Shown here: one piece after another, positions 4,057 to 18,416 of the stretch | Position numbering within the stretch: position 1 is the first letter of the stretch | Layout: every line of letters begins with the position of its first letter | Origin: Chloroflexota bacterium | Lineage (GTDB): Bacteria > Chloroflexota > Dehalococcoidia > Lucifugimonadales > Lucifugimonadaceae | Direction of reading: 5' to 3' | NCBI GenBank assembly: GCA_002721675.1 | Contig: PBLC01000013.1 | Location: forward strand, 1-53,221 | Length of the DNA: 53,221 nt | Translations under genes and position numbers: made by a program | The notes under the pieces: model-generated | The model's input: the letters and a program-made list of their open reading frames with translations, nothing else | Told to the model about the DNA's origin: nothing | The model's database searches: none

Positions 4057-4983
4057 TTAATTAGTAGTTAAATCGTTATTTCTAATGTCTTCTAATTTAG
4101 GAAATGATTGAGAGGCACCTTGATTAATTGTGCTTAATGCAGATGCAAAAATAGAAAAATTTAACGCATCATTAAAAGATGATTTTTCATAAATCTTCAC
4201 TGCTAATGCCCCATTAAAACAGTCACCACTACCTACTGGATCAACAGAATTTACATTATACGAAGGTAGCCTTCCAACTTTTTCTCCTGCAAAAACAATC
4301 CCATCTTTTCCGAGAGTAATAATTACATTCTTAGGTCCCATATTCCTAATTTCTTTAGCTGCTTCCAACTCTTTCCCATTAATTTTTTTACCTAAAATAT
4401 ATTCAGCTTCATGTTTATTAGGTGTTAAAAAATCTACGAGTTTCAAATAATCTGTAAAATTCCTAAACTCCTCCTTTGGTGGTCCTGGGTCAAGAATAGT
4501 TATAATTTTTTTGTTCTTAGCAACTTTTAATATCTTGTAATTTGTTTCAATTGGAATTTCTTGTTGAAGCATAACTATAGAAACTTTTTCAGATATATTG
4601 GAAAAAACTTCTACTTCTGAGTCACCATTTTTTGAGTTTGCTCCAGGATAGACACTAATTTGATTATTATTATCTGAGTCTATATAAATAATCGCATTGC
4701 CTGTCATATCTTCATTAGTTGTATTTAAGTCAGAAATATCAAGTTTTTCATTTAATAAGTCATTTTTGATTTTTTCACCAAATGCATCCTCCCCTACCGA
4801 ACCAATAAACTTTACAATCTTTTTATTGCTTAGTCTTGACGCAGCAATAGATTGGTTCAAACCTTTGCCTCCAAGAGAGATATATGAGTTATCGCTAGGT
4901 AAAGTTTCTCCAGGGCTGGGAAATCTGTTACCTCTGTGTGTTATATCAATATTTGCAGACCCGACAATTACTATATGACTCAT
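4057..4983 (-). CDS. PfkB-family sugar kinase, ribokinase-like
   Basis: A 308-residue kinase of the ribokinase fold. The N-terminal substrate motif GGKGLNQSIAA (near residue 38) matches ribokinase (GGKGANQA). The C-terminal signature DPVGSGDCFNGA holds the catalytic Asp and the anion hole, though the usual TGAGD reads VGSGD. NPNK-like text appears as LTPNKHEAEYI. Expected reaction is ATP-dependent phosphorylation of ribose or a related sugar or nucleoside. No ribose transporter or repressor is next to it, so the substrate is open. Confidence 0.88.
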   Translation of the reverse strand: MSHIVIVGSANIDITHRGNRFPSPGETLPSDNSYISLGGKGLNQSIAASRLSNKKIVKFIGSVGEDAFGEKIKNDLLNEKLDISDLNTTNEDMTGNAIIYIDSDNNNQISVYPGANSKNGDSEVEVFSNISEKVSIVMLQQEIPIETNYKILKVAKNKKIITILDPGPPKEEFRNFTDYLKLVDFLTPNKHEAEYILGKKINGKELEAAKEIRNMGPKNVIITLGKDGIVFAGEKVGRLPSYNVNSVDPVGSGDCFNGALAVKIYEKSSFNDALNFSIFASALSTINQGASQSFPKLEDIRNNDLTTN

Positions 4984-5009
4984 TTTTCTTGTTAGAATTT
5001 AAAATATCT

Positions 5010-5018
5010 GTATTATAC
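5010..5018. promoter_or_regulatory. Palindromic -10 shared by two divergent genes
   Basis: GTATTATAC lies between the kinase gene (start 4983, minus) and the small membrane gene (start 5026, plus). On + TATTAT ends 9 nt before the ATG, giving an almost leaderless mRNA. On - it reads TATAAT, giving a leader of about 22 nt. The arrangement matches 1349-1357. Confidence 0.5.
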
Positions 5019-5025
5019 ATTTTTA

Positions 5026-5355
5026 ATGAGTACTCAAGAAAAAAAACTTATTGACTACATATTGTTATACTCGGTGATTATTTCTCACCATGTGTACATA
5101 TTATTGTTCATTGCCTCACTGCCAGTAATGATTGTGAAGGCGCCATGGTACATAAGCGTCCCATTAATCAGTTGGTTTTTAAATGCTTCAATAGGTCAAG
5201 GATGGATTTGTCCTTGGACAACCATTGAAAATAAACTGAGAAAAAAAGTAGGGTATCCACAAATAGATGCATTCGTTAAGCATTACTATATAAAGCCTTA
5301 TATTAGATATAAAATTAGATCTAAAATTAGATCTGCAAAAAAAGATAGTATTTAA
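5026..5355 (+). CDS. Small membrane protein, DUF2784-like
   Basis: A 109-residue protein with two hydrophobic segments (IDYILLYSVIISHHVYILLFIASLPVMIV and WYISVPLISWFLNASIG), then a CPWTTIENKLRKK motif and a basic C-terminal tail. The CPxTxxEN signature and size resemble DUF2784 proteins, whose function is unknown; I hold this loosely. The tail KIRSKIRS is encoded by a perfect 12-bp tandem repeat (5311-5334). Confidence 0.6.
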   Translation: MSTQEKKLIDYILLYSVIISHHVYILLFIASLPVMIVKAPWYISVPLISWFLNASIGQGWICPWTTIENKLRKKVGYPQIDAFVKHYYIKPYIRYKIRSKIRSAKKDSI

Positions 5356-5366
5356 TATAGATTAAC

Positions 5367-6215
5367 TCAGGAATTAATTAACTGATTTAAAAGTTTTGTA
5401 TACTCTTCTGGTTTTTCAAATCTAATATTGTGGCCAGTATCGAATCTATAAATATCGCATTTATCTATATTATTTGAAACTTTATCAGCTATAACATCCA
5501 ACATAATGCCCCCTTTTTGATTATTTCCTCCCACTAAATAAGTTTTAGCTGAAATATTTTTTGAAATTTCTGGAGCATCATGCCAAACCCAATCATTATT
5601 TTCTCCAGCATTCTGCCAAATTTTTATATCATGATGAAAAGCTAAAGATGCACGAATCGCTCCCCAGAATGGATTCGTTTTAAATATTTCTGGATCAAAA
5701 TTTTGGTAAGAAAATATTGCATCTAGGACCGTCCTCCAATTAGGTTTATATTCAGAGAAAAATTTACTACCTTTTTCGTACTTAATGAGTTGGTCATTAA
5801 TAAGTTTGTCAGATACTTCTCCACTTGCCACCTTTCCTCTTTCTTCAGAAAACCAAGGTGGGTCTTCTAAAAGTTGGTGGGTAATTTTAGATCCAAGCTT
5901 GGATGATACCTGAAGACTTATAGATGCTCCTAATGAATGCCCAACAATTATTAATTGACCATTTATAGATTCCACAAATTCAAGTATAGGGGCGTAATAA
6001 GTATTAATATTATAGTTTTTTAGGTGACCACTCTTATTATGCCCTGGCAGATCTACAGCATAAATTTTATAAGAACCAAATTGATCAATTAAATTTTTCC
6101 ATACTTCCCAGCCTCCTTGCCATCCATGAATAAAAAGTAGAGTTTTTTTACTCTCAACGCCGTTATGAAAGTAATTTATATCTACATCCGAGGCTTTAAA
6201 AATATTTTCTGGCAT
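5367..6215 (-). CDS. Alpha/beta-fold hydrolase
   Basis: About 282 residues of alpha/beta hydrolase fold. The oxyanion-region motif is LLFIHGWQGGWEVW near residue 27, the nucleophile elbow is GHSLGA, and the catalytic His is in TGHNIRFEKPEEY near the C-terminus. It acts on an ester, lactone or C-C bond; no substrate can be assigned. The frame extends upstream to 6260, but the ATG at 6215 has AGGAG 3-4 nt before it and begins a normal family N-terminus. Confidence 0.85.
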   Translation of the reverse strand: MPENIFKASDVDINYFHNGVESKKTLLFIHGWQGGWEVWKNLIDQFGSYKIYAVDLPGHNKSGHLKNYNINTYYAPILEFVESINGQLIIVGHSLGASISLQVSSKLGSKITHQLLEDPPWFSEERGKVASGEVSDKLINDQLIKYEKGSKFFSEYKPNWRTVLDAIFSYQNFDPEIFKTNPFWGAIRASLAFHHDIKIWQNAGENNDWVWHDAPEISKNISAKTYLVGGNNQKGGIMLDVIADKVSNNIDKCDIYRFDTGHNIRFEKPEEYTKLLNQLINS

Positions 6216-10061: not shown

Positions 10062-11181
10062 TTTTTCAAGATTTAAGTTATCAAATGAATCTCTTAAAGC
10101 TTTAGATGGCCTTGGATTTAAATATCCAACTCCAATTCAATCAAAAGCAATCCCTATAGGATTAACTGGCCGCGATATTTTAGCAAATGCACAAACTGGA
10201 TCAGGAAAAACACTCGCCTTTACTCTACCTTTAATTGAAAAGATAAAAAATAATAACAATTCCTCTGGATTGATACTTACACCTACAAGAGAATTGGCTA
10301 AGCAAATATATTCAGTAGTAAATATTATTCTCAGTTATCACACTAATATTAAAAGTATACTTTTGATTGGAGGTGAAGGTATATATTCTCAATCAAACAA
10401 TCTTAAAAAATTACCCCAAATAATTATTGGTACACCTGGAAGAATAAATGATCATCTAGATCGAGGTTCATTAAATCTTAATAGGTGTGAATTAGTGGTT
10501 TTAGATGAAACAGATAAAATGCTCGAGATGGGATTCGAATTCCAAGTAAGAGATATCCTCAAAGCAATAAATAATAAAAGGCAAATGCTAATGTTTTCTG
10601 CAACACTTCCAAATCAAATTATTAAATTATCTTCAAAATATTCAAACAGGCCCGAAAGAATCTCTATACAAGAAAATGAAGTTTTAAATTTCAATATAAA
10701 GCAAGATGTAATTAATGTTTTCCCAAAAGATAAATTCAAAGAACTTTCTAAACAAATTGAAAAAAGAGACGGATCAATTTTAGTTTTTGTAAAAACAAAG
10801 TATGGAACTGAAAAGTTATCTAAAAGACTTAAAAGAGAAGGGATTAAATCTACTGCACTACATGGCGGATTAAGACAAAATAAAAGAAGCAGGATAATGG
10901 ATAATTTTAGAGATGAGAAGTTCAGGATAATGATTGCTACTGATATTGCTTCTAGAGGAATTGATGTGCCTCATATTGAACATGTCATCAATTATGATTT
11001 ACCTCAAGCGCCTGAAGATTTTGTTCACAGAATTGGAAGAACTGCAAGGGCTGGATCAATAGGAGAAGCCGTGAGTTTCGTAACACCTAATGATTCAAAA
11101 ATTTGGAAATCAATTGAAATTACTGTTAAAAGAATATCTAAAAATAAATCCTCTAAAAAAAAGAAAAGTAAAAATCTTTAA
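10054..11181 (+). CDS. DEAD-box-type ATP-dependent RNA helicase
   Basis: 375 residues with both RecA-like domains. Q motif is YPTPIQ (residues 24-29), motif I AQTGSGKT (46-53), Ia PTRELA, Ib TPGR, motif II DETD (151-154), III SAT, then HGG, DIASRGID and HRIGRTARAG. Motif II has Thr where the family normally has Ala. The protein is near the minimal core, with only a short Lys/Ser tail, so it lacks accessory RNA-binding domains. Expected roles are ribosome assembly or mRNA turnover. Its stop interlocks with the convergent gene in TTAA (11178-11181). Confidence 0.93.
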   Translation: MDNFSRFKLSNESLKALDGLGFKYPTPIQSKAIPIGLTGRDILANAQTGSGKTLAFTLPLIEKIKNNNNSSGLILTPTRELAKQIYSVVNIILSYHTNIKSILLIGGEGIYSQSNNLKKLPQIIIGTPGRINDHLDRGSLNLNRCELVVLDETDKMLEMGFEFQVRDILKAINNKRQMLMFSATLPNQIIKLSSKYSNRPERISIQENEVLNFNIKQDVINVFPKDKFKELSKQIEKRDGSILVFVKTKYGTEKLSKRLKREGIKSTALHGGLRQNKRSRIMDNFRDEKFRIMIATDIASRGIDVPHIEHVINYDLPQAPEDFVHRIGRTARAGSIGEAVSFVTPNDSKIWKSIEITVKRISKNKSSKKKKSKNL

Positions 11182-12425
11182 TCAAAAAAATCTTTATCTT
11201 CTTCTTTAAGATATTTTTTTGCGCCATCATTAAAAGATATACCTAACCCTGGTGAATCCCAAACATCTATATAACTATCTTTTACAATAGGGCTTGGAAG
11301 GCCATCTATAATATCGTACCACCACTTATGGCAAGGTACGCAGTATTCGAAAGCAATATAATTTTTTGGTAATGTTGCAGCCAATTGAACATGAGCCGCT
11401 AACCCAATTAACCCGTCAATAGTTCCGTGAGGGGCTATGCTTATCCCGTTCATATCAGCATATTCTGCAATCCATTTAGTTTCAGCCAAACCTCCTACAT
11501 CCAATGGGTCAGGACCTACTACGTTAACAGCCCTTTTATCTATTAAATCCTTAAAATTATGTCTTAAATATATTTGTTCGCCTGTATGGATAGGGGTAGT
11601 TGTGTTTATTGTAACGTCTCGATAAAGGTCGGCTAGCACATATGGCGTGTAGTCGCCAGTTATCATATCTTCTAACCACATTATATTTAAATCTTCAACC
11701 GCTTTTGCAATTTTTAGTGCGTCGCTCGGATTGATACCTGGGCCCAAATCAAGAGCCAAACCAACTTCATCTCCTAGGACCTCTTTCATAGCTTTAATGC
11801 ATTCAATAGTATAATTAAATCCCTTCTCAGTTATTTGTCCACCGCCCGGAATATATTGACTTAATGCCCATGGTTTTTGGTCTGATTCGTCCTCATAAAC
11901 AATGCTATTATTTTCATCCCAATGGACGTCACCATAAAAATAATCATCGAAATTTGATGCAAATTCTCCATGGACAGCAATCCCTTGCTTAATTATTGAA
12001 AAACCTTCATCTAAGTTTTTCATTTTTAGAGTATTTTCTGCAAAACTTTCTGGGCTATCTTTACCTTCAATAGGAAACCTTATTCCTCCGTTATAGACCA
12101 ATACCCTATCCCTGACTTTTCCACCAAGTAATTTATATATTGGCAAATTAGATGCCTTGCCAGCAATGTCCCATAATGCAACTTCAATAGCACTTACAGC
12201 AGAACCGTATGGCTTGAAACCACCAAGCCTTCTAATCTTTCTCATTACTCTTTCAACATTGGTAGGATCCTCACCAAGAAGTTGAGGCTTATAAAATAAT
12301 ACAAAAGGTTTCAAGTATGGTTTTGCCCATTCTGCCTGACCAAAGCCAGAAATTCCTTCATCAGTTAATATTCTGACTACAGGAGTCTTTCCAATTATTG
12401 CACATTTTAAATCAGTAATTTTCAT
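11178..12425 (-). CDS. Second enolase-superfamily enzyme (mandelate racemase-like)
   Basis: 415 residues of the same superfamily as the protein at 8910 but a distinct subgroup. K146 is followed by QG rather than a second Lys (IIKQGIAV). D226 (LDLGPG), E252 (WLED) and E283 (TGEQ) are the metal ligands, and H333 (APH) the general base. A polar insertion of about 45 residues (155-200) follows the Lys strand and may cover the active site. A sugar-acid dehydratase or cycloisomerase role fits the family. It begins 4 nt after the M28 peptidase stop, so the two form an operon. Confidence 0.88.
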   Translation of the reverse strand: MKITDLKCAIIGKTPVVRILTDEGISGFGQAEWAKPYLKPFVLFYKPQLLGEDPTNVERVMRKIRRLGGFKPYGSAVSAIEVALWDIAGKASNLPIYKLLGGKVRDRVLVYNGGIRFPIEGKDSPESFAENTLKMKNLDEGFSIIKQGIAVHGEFASNFDDYFYGDVHWDENNSIVYEDESDQKPWALSQYIPGGGQITEKGFNYTIECIKAMKEVLGDEVGLALDLGPGINPSDALKIAKAVEDLNIMWLEDMITGDYTPYVLADLYRDVTINTTTPIHTGEQIYLRHNFKDLIDKRAVNVVGPDPLDVGGLAETKWIAEYADMNGISIAPHGTIDGLIGLAAHVQLAATLPKNYIAFEYCVPCHKWWYDIIDGLPSPIVKDSYIDVWDSPGLGISFNDGAKKYLKEEDKDFFD

Positions 12426-12429
12426 TTAC

Positions 12430-13824
12430 TCATCCTGTTCTTATTTCAAAATTTTTTTCTTCATCAAGCCTTGTCCTTACTATCTCCTTAGTTAATGGAT
12501 TTTTTGGCCACTGTTCAATTGGTATTAAGGATAATCTAATAAGTAATCTTGAAAAAGTAGAAATATAATACTTAAGATCTTTTACATTTAATTTGTCAAA
12601 AGTATCTGGAGGCTCATGATGATATTCACAAGAAGGATATCTACCAAAAAATCTCCACCTCCAAGGATGAGAAGCATCAATTCCAGCTTCTAAAAAGGGG
12701 AAGTGATCTGAATGTCCATCTATTTGAGACATTACATGTACTTTCAGATCTTCATTTAAAGTATCAAGTTGTCCTTGTAAAAAATTTCTTAAATGCGAAA
12801 AACCCAAGACAATTCCTTTTAAATTCCCTGTAGACAATTCATCACAATTAAGCACATATTTTGGCTTATTTTTAGAATCATAATTATTATTAACGTGAAA
12901 AAATGACCCTTGTAGCCTTTGCTCTTCTGCACTTAATGTAATAAATCTTAAACCGATAATTGGTTTAAGTTTGAATTCATCTATAGCTTTCTTTACTGTC
13001 CTTGCAGTTTCAATTACAGCAATCGCTCCTGAGGTATTATCATTCCCCCCTGGCGTATCAAATACAGTATCATGGTGTCCACACATAACAATATATTCAC
13101 CTTTTATTTCCCCAGGTATTTCAGCAACAACATTTGATGTTTCTGCGTTATAAAATTCTGTTGTTACTTTTAATTTTGCTTTATGATTTTTTTGAGCATA
13201 TCTCTTCAATAACAATAGGTGCTCGCTAGATGTATTAACTATTGGTAATGGCGGATATACTGATTCGGGATCTCTAGTATCCCATACTGAAGAATATTCC
13301 ATCCTTCTACCTGATTTAGGATCTCCTACAATTATTGCAGAAGCGCCCATATTTGAAATAAAAGCAACTCTATTGCTTATTGGCTCTTGTTCTGTAAATG
13401 GTTCGTGATTTCTATAAATTAATGCAATCTTATCTTTGATATTTTCTGATTTTTCACTAACTTCACGATAAGTCCCATGACCTAAATCAATCATATCTGA
13501 ATCTAAATCAACAGATGGACATCTGTGATAAGGCTTAACATCAAGTTGCTTTCCTTCAACCTCTAGGGTGCTATTAATAAACTTATAAGTTTCAATATCA
13601 AAATTTTCATGATAAGTCTGAAGTCCCTCGTTTTTCCAAAATTCATGTATATATTTTGCTGCGTTTCTCTCATTTTGAGATGTTGCCCACCTTGATCCAA
13701 TATCTATACCCAACTTTTCATTGAGGTTTACAATTTCAGAATTTATCCAAGAATTACCCACAATCCACTTATCAATATCTTTAAAATTATATATATTCAT
13801 ATTTAAATTCTTATTTAATTCCAT
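12430..13824 (-). CDS. M28-family zinc metallopeptidase with PA-like insert
   Basis: 464 residues. The C-terminal peptidase domain has co-catalytic zinc ligands in order: His and Asp (CGHHDTV), the bridging Asp (GGNDNTSGA), Glu-Glu (SAEEQ), Asp (NCDELS) and a late His (EYHHEPPDTFD). A region near residues 100-210 resembles the protease-associated insert of M28 aminopeptidases. No signal peptide is seen, so it is probably cytosolic. TATATT lies 6 nt before the ATG, with no Shine-Dalgarno. It leads the operon with the downstream enolase-superfamily gene; joint action on an N-acyl or peptide conjugate is possible but unproven. Confidence 0.85.
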   Translation of the reverse strand: MELNKNLNMNIYNFKDIDKWIVGNSWINSEIVNLNEKLGIDIGSRWATSQNERNAAKYIHEFWKNEGLQTYHENFDIETYKFINSTLEVEGKQLDVKPYHRCPSVDLDSDMIDLGHGTYREVSEKSENIKDKIALIYRNHEPFTEQEPISNRVAFISNMGASAIIVGDPKSGRRMEYSSVWDTRDPESVYPPLPIVNTSSEHLLLLKRYAQKNHKAKLKVTTEFYNAETSNVVAEIPGEIKGEYIVMCGHHDTVFDTPGGNDNTSGAIAVIETARTVKKAIDEFKLKPIIGLRFITLSAEEQRLQGSFFHVNNNYDSKNKPKYVLNCDELSTGNLKGIVLGFSHLRNFLQGQLDTLNEDLKVHVMSQIDGHSDHFPFLEAGIDASHPWRWRFFGRYPSCEYHHEPPDTFDKLNVKDLKYYISTFSRLLIRLSLIPIEQWPKNPLTKEIVRTRLDEEKNFEIRTG

Positions 13825-17114: not shown

Positions 17115-17729
17115 ATGAGAGTTATAATTTTATTTTCATTAATTTTATTAATTTTTGCTTGCTCGCAAGAAGAAGAAATTACAGAAGTAACTAAAATTTT
17201 TTCAATGGATGAAGTTTCGACCGCAGGCTTCAAAGTAAAAAAAGATTTTAATACTGAGTTCCCTGATTCAACAGATGCAAAGTGGGGGTTCTATAAAGGT
17301 AGAGATGTTGCTGTTTTAAGATATGCTTCATTGGAATTAGCCAATTCTGCAGGTGCACTTGCAGGCAGAGAACAAACAGAGCAAATTGAGGTTGTTGAAA
17401 AAAATATAGCCCATGGGCCAAAAGTTGAAAGAACAGAATGTAGAGGACACAAACAAAATAAACCAAACTCTTCTTCTGTTTATTACAAATCTTTTAGGAA
17501 TAATTTAGGGTTTGAAAACTCACTTATAGTAAATAAAAATGCATTTATTGAAGAATTTGATAATTCAGAGCCCATGAAACCTAGTTGGATGGCATGTGTT
17601 CGAAGAGAGCCTATGTATACAGAATTCAAAATACATGGAAATCTAATTATTCTAATGGAACCATTAGCAACTGAGGATCAAAACGATACTAGAAAATTCT
17701 TAGATAAAGCGGCTAGCAGTATAAAGTAG
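17115..17729 (+). CDS. Small lipoprotein, paralogue of the 797-1342 protein
   Basis: 204 residues with lipobox LIFAC (Cys16). It shares with the 797-1342 protein the motifs FP-S-A-[RK]WG, KGR-VA, a TE-IE pair, GPKVE-T-CRG and RREP-YT, then a C-terminal GN..I-MEPLATED. It carries about 45 extra residues between CRG and RREP. TATAAT (17096-17101) and GAGG precede the ATG. It stands tail-to-tail with a third, more distant family member at 17730. Function is unknown. Confidence 0.8.
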   Translation: MRVIILFSLILLIFACSQEEEITEVTKIFSMDEVSTAGFKVKKDFNTEFPDSTDAKWGFYKGRDVAVLRYASLELANSAGALAGREQTEQIEVVEKNIAHGPKVERTECRGHKQNKPNSSSVYYKSFRNNLGFENSLIVNKNAFIEEFDNSEPMKPSWMACVRREPMYTEFKIHGNLIILMEPLATEDQNDTRKFLDKAASSIK

Positions 17730-18299
17730 TTACTCTGCTACAGGCATTGCACTCGGAACTACATCATATAAAGTTTTAGAGCATCTTATTTTTGAATCTT
17801 CCATGTTATAGCCAGGGCACATCATTATCATATTTCCATAGATTACATATGTAAGGTATTTTGGTTTTGGTTGACCATTGCCTGCATGTGTATTCCCTAG
17901 CCTTTCTGCTAGAAACTGCCGATGCTTTAAATCTGGTGTCCACAAAGCACAGTCTTTTGTAATACACCCATCCTCCCCTGTTGCATTTTCAACATATTCT
18001 GTACCTATTTGAACAGCATCAGAGTGATTTGCATAAAATCTTATTTCGTAATCAATCTTTTGGTCGTCAGGATCTAACTTATTTTTTATGAATCCATAAA
18101 ATGCAGATGTAGCGCCTGGAAGATCATCAACTTTATATTCTTTGCTCTTTTTAAAACCAACTGTTTTAAAATCTTCTATAGAAAAGGTTTGATCTACATT
18201 GGTTACTTGATCAACAATAGGAATATCCTCTGATTCATCACTAGAACCACAACCTAACAACAAAATTAAACTTATAAAACTTAAAATAATTTTTTTCAT
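17730..18299 (-). CDS. Small lipoprotein, distant member of the same family
   Basis: 189 residues with lipobox LLLGC (Cys17). It resembles the two other lipoproteins more weakly: FSIEDFKTVGFKKSKEY matches FSMDEVSTAGFKVKKDF, YGFIKNK matches WGFYKGR, and YVIYGNMIMM matches FKIHGNLIIL. It has extra Cys residues (GEDGCITKDCALW, CPGYN, IRCSK) that may form disulfides outside the membrane. Its stop abuts the stop of the 17115-17729 gene with no base between. Confidence 0.75.
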   Translation of the reverse strand: MKKIILSFISLILLLGCGSSDESEDIPIVDQVTNVDQTFSIEDFKTVGFKKSKEYKVDDLPGATSAFYGFIKNKLDPDDQKIDYEIRFYANHSDAVQIGTEYVENATGEDGCITKDCALWTPDLKHRQFLAERLGNTHAGNGQPKPKYLTYVIYGNMIMMCPGYNMEDSKIRCSKTLYDVVPSAMPVAE

Positions 18300-18341: not shown

Positions 18342-18416
18342 TGGTGACCCGCCTCGGGCTCGAACCGAGAACCTATTGATTAAGAGTCAATTGCTCTACC
18401 ATTGAGCTAGCGGGCC
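18342..18416 (-). tRNA. tRNA-Lys (anticodon CTT)
   Basis: A full cloverleaf on the minus strand. The acceptor pairs GGCCCGC with GCGGGTC, the D arm is GCTC-AATGGTA-GAGC, the anticodon stem is ATTGA/TCAAT with loop CTCTTAA, and the T arm has TTCGAGC. The anticodon CTT reads AAG. The 3' CCA is encoded. TATAAT lies 10 nt upstream (18427-18432), although read-through from the MFS operon is also possible. Confidence 0.95.

Follow-up and report, generated by a model that had tools for sequence, protein, structure and literature searches.

DUF6810 lipoproteins form an expanded family in SAR202 Chloroflexota whose genes are linked to an Opp/Dpp-type importer

Bacteria of the SAR202 clade are abundant in the ocean and are thought to consume hard-to-degrade dissolved organic matter, and attention has so far been directed to their enzyme expansions. 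On the uptake side, importers of the Opp/Dpp type are marked by SBP_bac_5, BPD_transp_1 and oligo_HPY domains, with SBP_bac_5 in the binding protein; to our knowledge, no standard system of this type comes with an array of small accessory lipoproteins. The Pfam family DUF6810 (PF20650) carries no assigned function, and no paper naming it by either term was found in the literature searched (subscription papers and supplements aside). In SAR202 group I, the enolase superfamily (COG4948) forms large paralog sets and accounts for about 2.8% of coding sequences (PMC10444878); in searches of the main texts of two papers on SAR202, lipoproteins are nowhere mentioned. Further, in another phylum, the PknH-type domain (PF14032; LppH, LprH, LpqA, LpqQ and TiME) occurs in mycobacterial lipoproteins that are likewise secreted, disulfide-bonded and expanded, and it has a cleft in which a small molecule is believed to bind (PMC4118811, PMC3601408). 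Here, we describe a family of DUF6810 lipoproteins in SAR202 whose expansion appears to be unreported in the literature searched; the new observations are its linkage to one orthologous importer in seven genera and its co-occurrence with that importer.

The window, by which we mean the whole 53,221-nt stretch of contig PBLC01000013.1 that was analysed (assembly GCA_002721675.1), contains three genes of the family (Table 1), named here by their first coordinates (797, 17115 and 17730). Genes 17115 and 17730 run towards each other and leave zero bases between their stop codons, where the TAG at 17727-17729 (+) abuts the TAA at 17730-17732 (-). The open reading frames, the sequence motifs and the tail-to-tail pair described in the first-pass annotation are all confirmed, as are its three lipoboxes: each signal peptide is closed by a lipobox-like cysteine (IFS-C, IFA-C and LLG-C), with Cys16 as the predicted lipidation site of the 17115 protein and Cys17 as the lipobox cysteine of the 17730 protein. 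More broadly, a home-made lipobox pattern matched 129 of the 135 family genes, against 47 of 583 other genes. A tRNA-Lys (CTT) gene lies at 18342-18416 (-), between the 17730 gene and an MFS transporter gene; in the relative G008, an additional DUF6810 gene (L105:8225-8788) is found between flanks orthologous to those of this tRNA-Lys region.

Table 1. Coordinates of the DUF6810-family features in the window and of the DUF368-type loci.
Feature	Coordinates	Strand	Basis
CRG/RREP (S) subfamily lipoprotein, 204 aa	17115..17729	+	ORF, motifs, DUF6810 1.8e-6, conserved columns, model, tree
Canonical DUF6810 lipoprotein, 189 aa	17730..18299	-	DUF6810 3.2e-40, model, synteny, dN/dS
DUF6810 domain inside the 17730-18299 gene	17772..18182	-	Pfam
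Short S-subfamily lipoprotein, 181 aa	797..1342	-	pairwise match, conserved columns, synteny, dN/dS
Lipobox Cys codon of the 17115 gene	17160..17162	+	sequence
Lipobox Cys codon of the 17730 gene	18249..18251	-	sequence
DUF368-type/DUF6810 loci	L030:3674-5078, L110:6181-7609, L138:6116-7549		

The three proteins are one family. The 797 and 17115 proteins match each other over 170 aa (E = 2e-29) and the 17115 and 17730 proteins match across the N-terminal half (E = 8e-7), while a direct comparison of 797 with 17730 gives only E = 0.035. Pfam DUF6810 covers its whole domain in the 17730 protein (3e-40, 137.7 bits) and matches the 17115 protein weakly, above the curated gathering cut-off of 25 bits (1.8e-6, 28.3 bits); the 797 protein has no Pfam match and so falls below the cut-off. 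When a profile of 24 relatives of the 17115 protein was compared with a profile of 35 canonical DUF6810 proteins, the two aligned over their full length (99.6%, E = 1.2e-23). The pairwise, Pfam and profile matches therefore define a single family with two subfamilies, the canonical one (C) and the CRG/RREP one (S), the latter at or beyond the edge of the Pfam model's reach. Because it is joined only through the 17115 subfamily and the profile comparison, the 797 protein is placed in the wider family but is not counted as a hit of Pfam DUF6810. These results, together with the matching order of predicted secondary structure in both subfamilies, bear out the earlier proposal of a single family; the statement that no named family shares these motifs does not stand, given the Pfam matches of the second and third proteins. 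NCBIfam matches were signal-peptide noise.

AlphaFold models of the mature 17730 protein (pLDDT 86) and the mature 17115 protein (pLDDT 76, low across the insert at 97-143) place their elements in the same order, namely a helix, three strands, a helix, a long loop, two strands and a helix. The structure comparison proposed earlier thus supports the kinship of these two proteins. The S-subfamily alignment has an invariant C109 and a C161 that is nearly invariant (in A3), which probably form a disulfide closing the variable loop; the 797 protein does not have the insert of about 40 residues found in this subfamily. In canonical proteins, C144 and C156 (mature 17730 numbering) are nearly invariant. 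Further conserved residues are E68, R70, Y72 and N139 (mature numbering). Overall, 98 of 107 mature canonical proteins contain either two (62) or four (36) cysteines, and 21 of 22 mature S proteins contain two. Foldseek searches against the PDB and viral models returned nothing with E below 0.001, and a sequence search of solved structures gave only signal-peptide or chance matches.

The family is expanded within a single bacterial lineage. The window's own genome (0.98 Mb, 77% complete) has about 12 family genes, so that the three copies in 18 kb noted at first are present but understate the total. This count leaves out contig C13, a strain duplicate in the assembly that would inflate it; C13 (L029) repeats the window's 10-18.3 kb region in reverse with 99-100% protein identity, including a 100% copy of the gene pair. 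In the relative G008 (1.3 Mb), merging two hit lists by hand yields 37 family genes, or roughly 2-3% of its genes if one gene per kb is assumed; the enolase expansion of the same clade concerns enzymes, whereas this one concerns lipoproteins. Of 61 genomes from the window's own taxonomic family, 36 carry DUF6810, and outside that family it was not matched among the 301 phylum genomes or 59 order genomes sampled, both of which contained same-family members without DUF6810. Those relatives that carry a name are MAGs labelled SAR202, Dehalococcoidia or Chloroflexi, and no relative was found in phages, plasmids or viral contigs. In the samples searched, the family is therefore confined to one bacterial family (SAR202, Chloroflexota), in agreement with the first-pass proposal of a lineage-specific expansion. 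In a tree of 188 proteins, which comes from a quick search and has SH-aLRT values as its sole support, one branch (SH-aLRT 80) sets apart the S subfamily of the window's genus together with three distant members from genus g11, and the 17730 protein belongs to a clade restricted to its genus. One clade of importer-array members covers g1, g3, g4, g10, g11 and g12, and this part of the array is therefore old.

The importer beside these arrays is a complete member of the Opp/Dpp type, with an SBP_bac_5 lipoprotein gene divergent from two permease and two ATPase genes, and it is orthologous across genera. Its binding protein, of about 630 aa, carries the SBP_bac_5 domain (PF00496); in contrast, DUF6810 proteins are about 185 aa long without that domain, and PF00496 has no Pfam match in the three window proteins. 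DUF6810 genes abut the importer in seven genera: g1 (the window's genus, in its relatives), g3, g4, g8, g10, g11 and g12. In particular, the first gene to follow the binding-protein gene on the same strand is a DUF6810 gene, at a distance of 99-203 bp, in L143, L154, L160, L163, L169, L180 and L182, and the same arrangement occurs in L187 at 68 bp. Across six loci from six genera, few genes are common beyond DUF6810 and the importer, and the linkage has therefore persisted while its surroundings changed. In the window's own genome, the importer is on another contig (C18) that ends inside the binding-protein gene; in G003, the stretch examined holds the binding-protein gene without a DUF6810 gene.

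The two also co-occur. When a match at least roughly 60% identical to the G008 copy is taken as presence, the binding protein is found in 12 of 19 DUF6810-positive genomes and in 1 of 16 DUF6810-negative genomes (p = 0.001); when only genomes at least 80% complete are considered, the counts are 7 of 10 and 0 of 14 (p = 3.5e-4), all p values here being from Fisher tests that ignore shared ancestry. In G053, the lone exception, the first part of a DUF6810-like lipoprotein gene lies at a contig end, and moving this genome to the positives, a step taken after the data were seen, changes the counts to 13 of 20 and 0 of 15 (p = 6e-5). Moreover, in genus g8, and in G018 of g10, genomes without the importer or without DUF6810 are also without the other. 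Linkage could render co-loss partly mechanical. Three genomes (G012, G015 and G028) have two to four DUF6810 genes each and no importer ortholog.

The linkage to the importer suggests that these proteins catch or sense nutrients on the surface of the cell. As our tentative best explanation, which we hold with somewhat less than even confidence, the family would consist of surface lipoproteins that assist an Opp/Dpp-type importer by capturing or sensing its ligand and that were later dispersed. According to this mechanism, the three genes would produce small, disulfide-bonded DUF6810 lipoproteins, which are probably anchored on the outside of the SAR202 cell's single membrane. Its probable origin is a tandem array of lipoprotein genes next to an importer of the Opp/Dpp class, whose ligands the array proteins may capture, present or sense. 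In the window's genus, the family would then have grown in number and scattered, and the CRG/RREP subfamily would have radiated there; each paralog may serve a separate ligand. The first-pass suggestion of possible ligand binders is made more concrete by the importer linkage and is still conjecture. A bolder extension, which we consider doubtful, is that these proteins represent a new class of ABC-importer accessory, in which small surface lipoproteins without the SBP fold feed or gate an Opp-type importer and provide several dozen ligand receptors on one fold. If tied to the importer, this surface-protein expansion, similar in size to the enzyme expansions, would supply the uptake side of the SAR202 story; importer-linked DUF6810 genes offer a testable handle on what SAR202 cells take up, and they give a domain of unknown function its first concrete genomic context.

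Several other explanations were weighed against partnership with the importer. The lipoproteins could be stand-alone extracellular sensors, each binding a small molecule and signalling through a membrane partner, as has been put forward for the mycobacterial PknH-type sensor domain and for lipoproteins containing it, which we regard as unlikely. The two families are alike in being secreted, disulfide-bonded and multiplied as lipoproteins, and the PknH cleft is itself a candidate small-molecule site (PMC4118811, PMC3601408). When PDB hits were re-aligned, the PknH ectodomain (4esq; Z 4.8, rmsd 6.0, 124 residues) spanned almost all of the canonical model, and TiME (7cu8; Z 4.4) aligned over 109 residues; however, Z values under 5 are in the noise range, and kinase N-lobes, rejected as candidates because they share only a common strand-helix order, score equally (Z up to 5). 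A profile comparison with 11 PknH-type sequences from mycobacterial plasmids, with M. ulcerans and M. marinum records left out, was not significant (hhalign E 0.04-0.44) and scored just somewhat better than a reversed-column decoy (0.37-0.84); PF14032 (PknH_C) had no match in the own genome, and no kinase partner gene was seen adjoining the arrays. Homology to PknH_C is thus unproven, and the fold resemblance is a weak lead on a possible mode of action, not on membership. It is also quite unlikely, in our estimate, that these are ordinary lipoproteins of the envelope whose task is structural or one of protein protection, linked to the importer by history and not by function. Adjacency by itself can persist, and in the window's genus most copies are away from the importer, adjoining varied genes; yet the linkage outlasts the rearrangement of nearly all surroundings in seven genera, and the family is usually absent where the importer is absent.

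A further proposal, that the proteins are surface components diversifying under pressure from phages or grazers, as a variable coat or decoy receptors, would account for many copies with predicted surface exposure, for a long variable loop between two conserved halves and for orthologs that are slightly more divergent than those of other genes (median identity 68.5% versus 78%). We judge it improbable, since the paralogues are mostly stable in place and under purifying selection, and no phage or plasmid relative was found. Of 47 directed tests in regions picked for containing family genes, 39 found the ortholog in place, compared with 265 of 302 tests of other genes, and gene mobility was set aside for this reason. 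Eight of nine ortholog pairs with G008 have dN/dS of 0.04-0.19, all rough ratios with dS near or above 1; no ratio is given for the 17115 pair, where dS is saturated. For example, the G008 ortholog of the 17730 gene is 91% identical in the same tail-to-tail place (dN/dS 0.04), and that of the 797 gene is 75.6% identical in the same place. Finally, it is very improbable that each lipoprotein scavenges for one enolase-type pathway of SAR202 group I sugar-acid catabolism. The literature documents the enolase expansion of this clade well (PMC6946804, PMC10444878), and in places a DUF6810 copy overlaps with an enolase-superfamily gene or lies ahead of it (L026:1190-1756 + 1753-2880; L027:4161-4745 + 4726-6075); against this, enolases are no commoner beside DUF6810 (5 of 63 neighbours versus 6 of 120 background genes), and genera without DUF6810 are also rich in them. 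Indeed, no partner of any kind was enriched among these 63 close same-strand neighbours, drawn from g1 and two other genera, relative to the 120 background genes.

The window and G008 share their gene order, with the tail-to-tail pair preserved, and the G008 span holds two more DUF6810 genes. One of them (L107:4413-4916) splits a pair whose window orthologs (11178-12425 and 12430-13824) are separated by 4 bp, which amounts to the clean gain or loss of one gene. Among other neighbours, a protein of about 1,080 aa that combines FG-GAP/UnbV repeats with a permease region of the ArsP type (L163:7972-11226, in G022) adjoins a DUF6810 array, and a 65% identical relative in G037 (L164 gene 2) is likewise beside an array. 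In G020 (L146:6304-7479) and G045 (L161:6826-8004), proteins of about 390 aa carry DUF6810 at the C-terminus behind an N-terminal region of about 250 residues, which has no Pfam domain in the L146 protein, the one searched. In two genomes, a DUF368-type gene (undecaprenyl phosphate translocase-like) overlaps the downstream DUF6810 gene by about 20 bp, and in a third the two read as a single 477-aa open reading frame.
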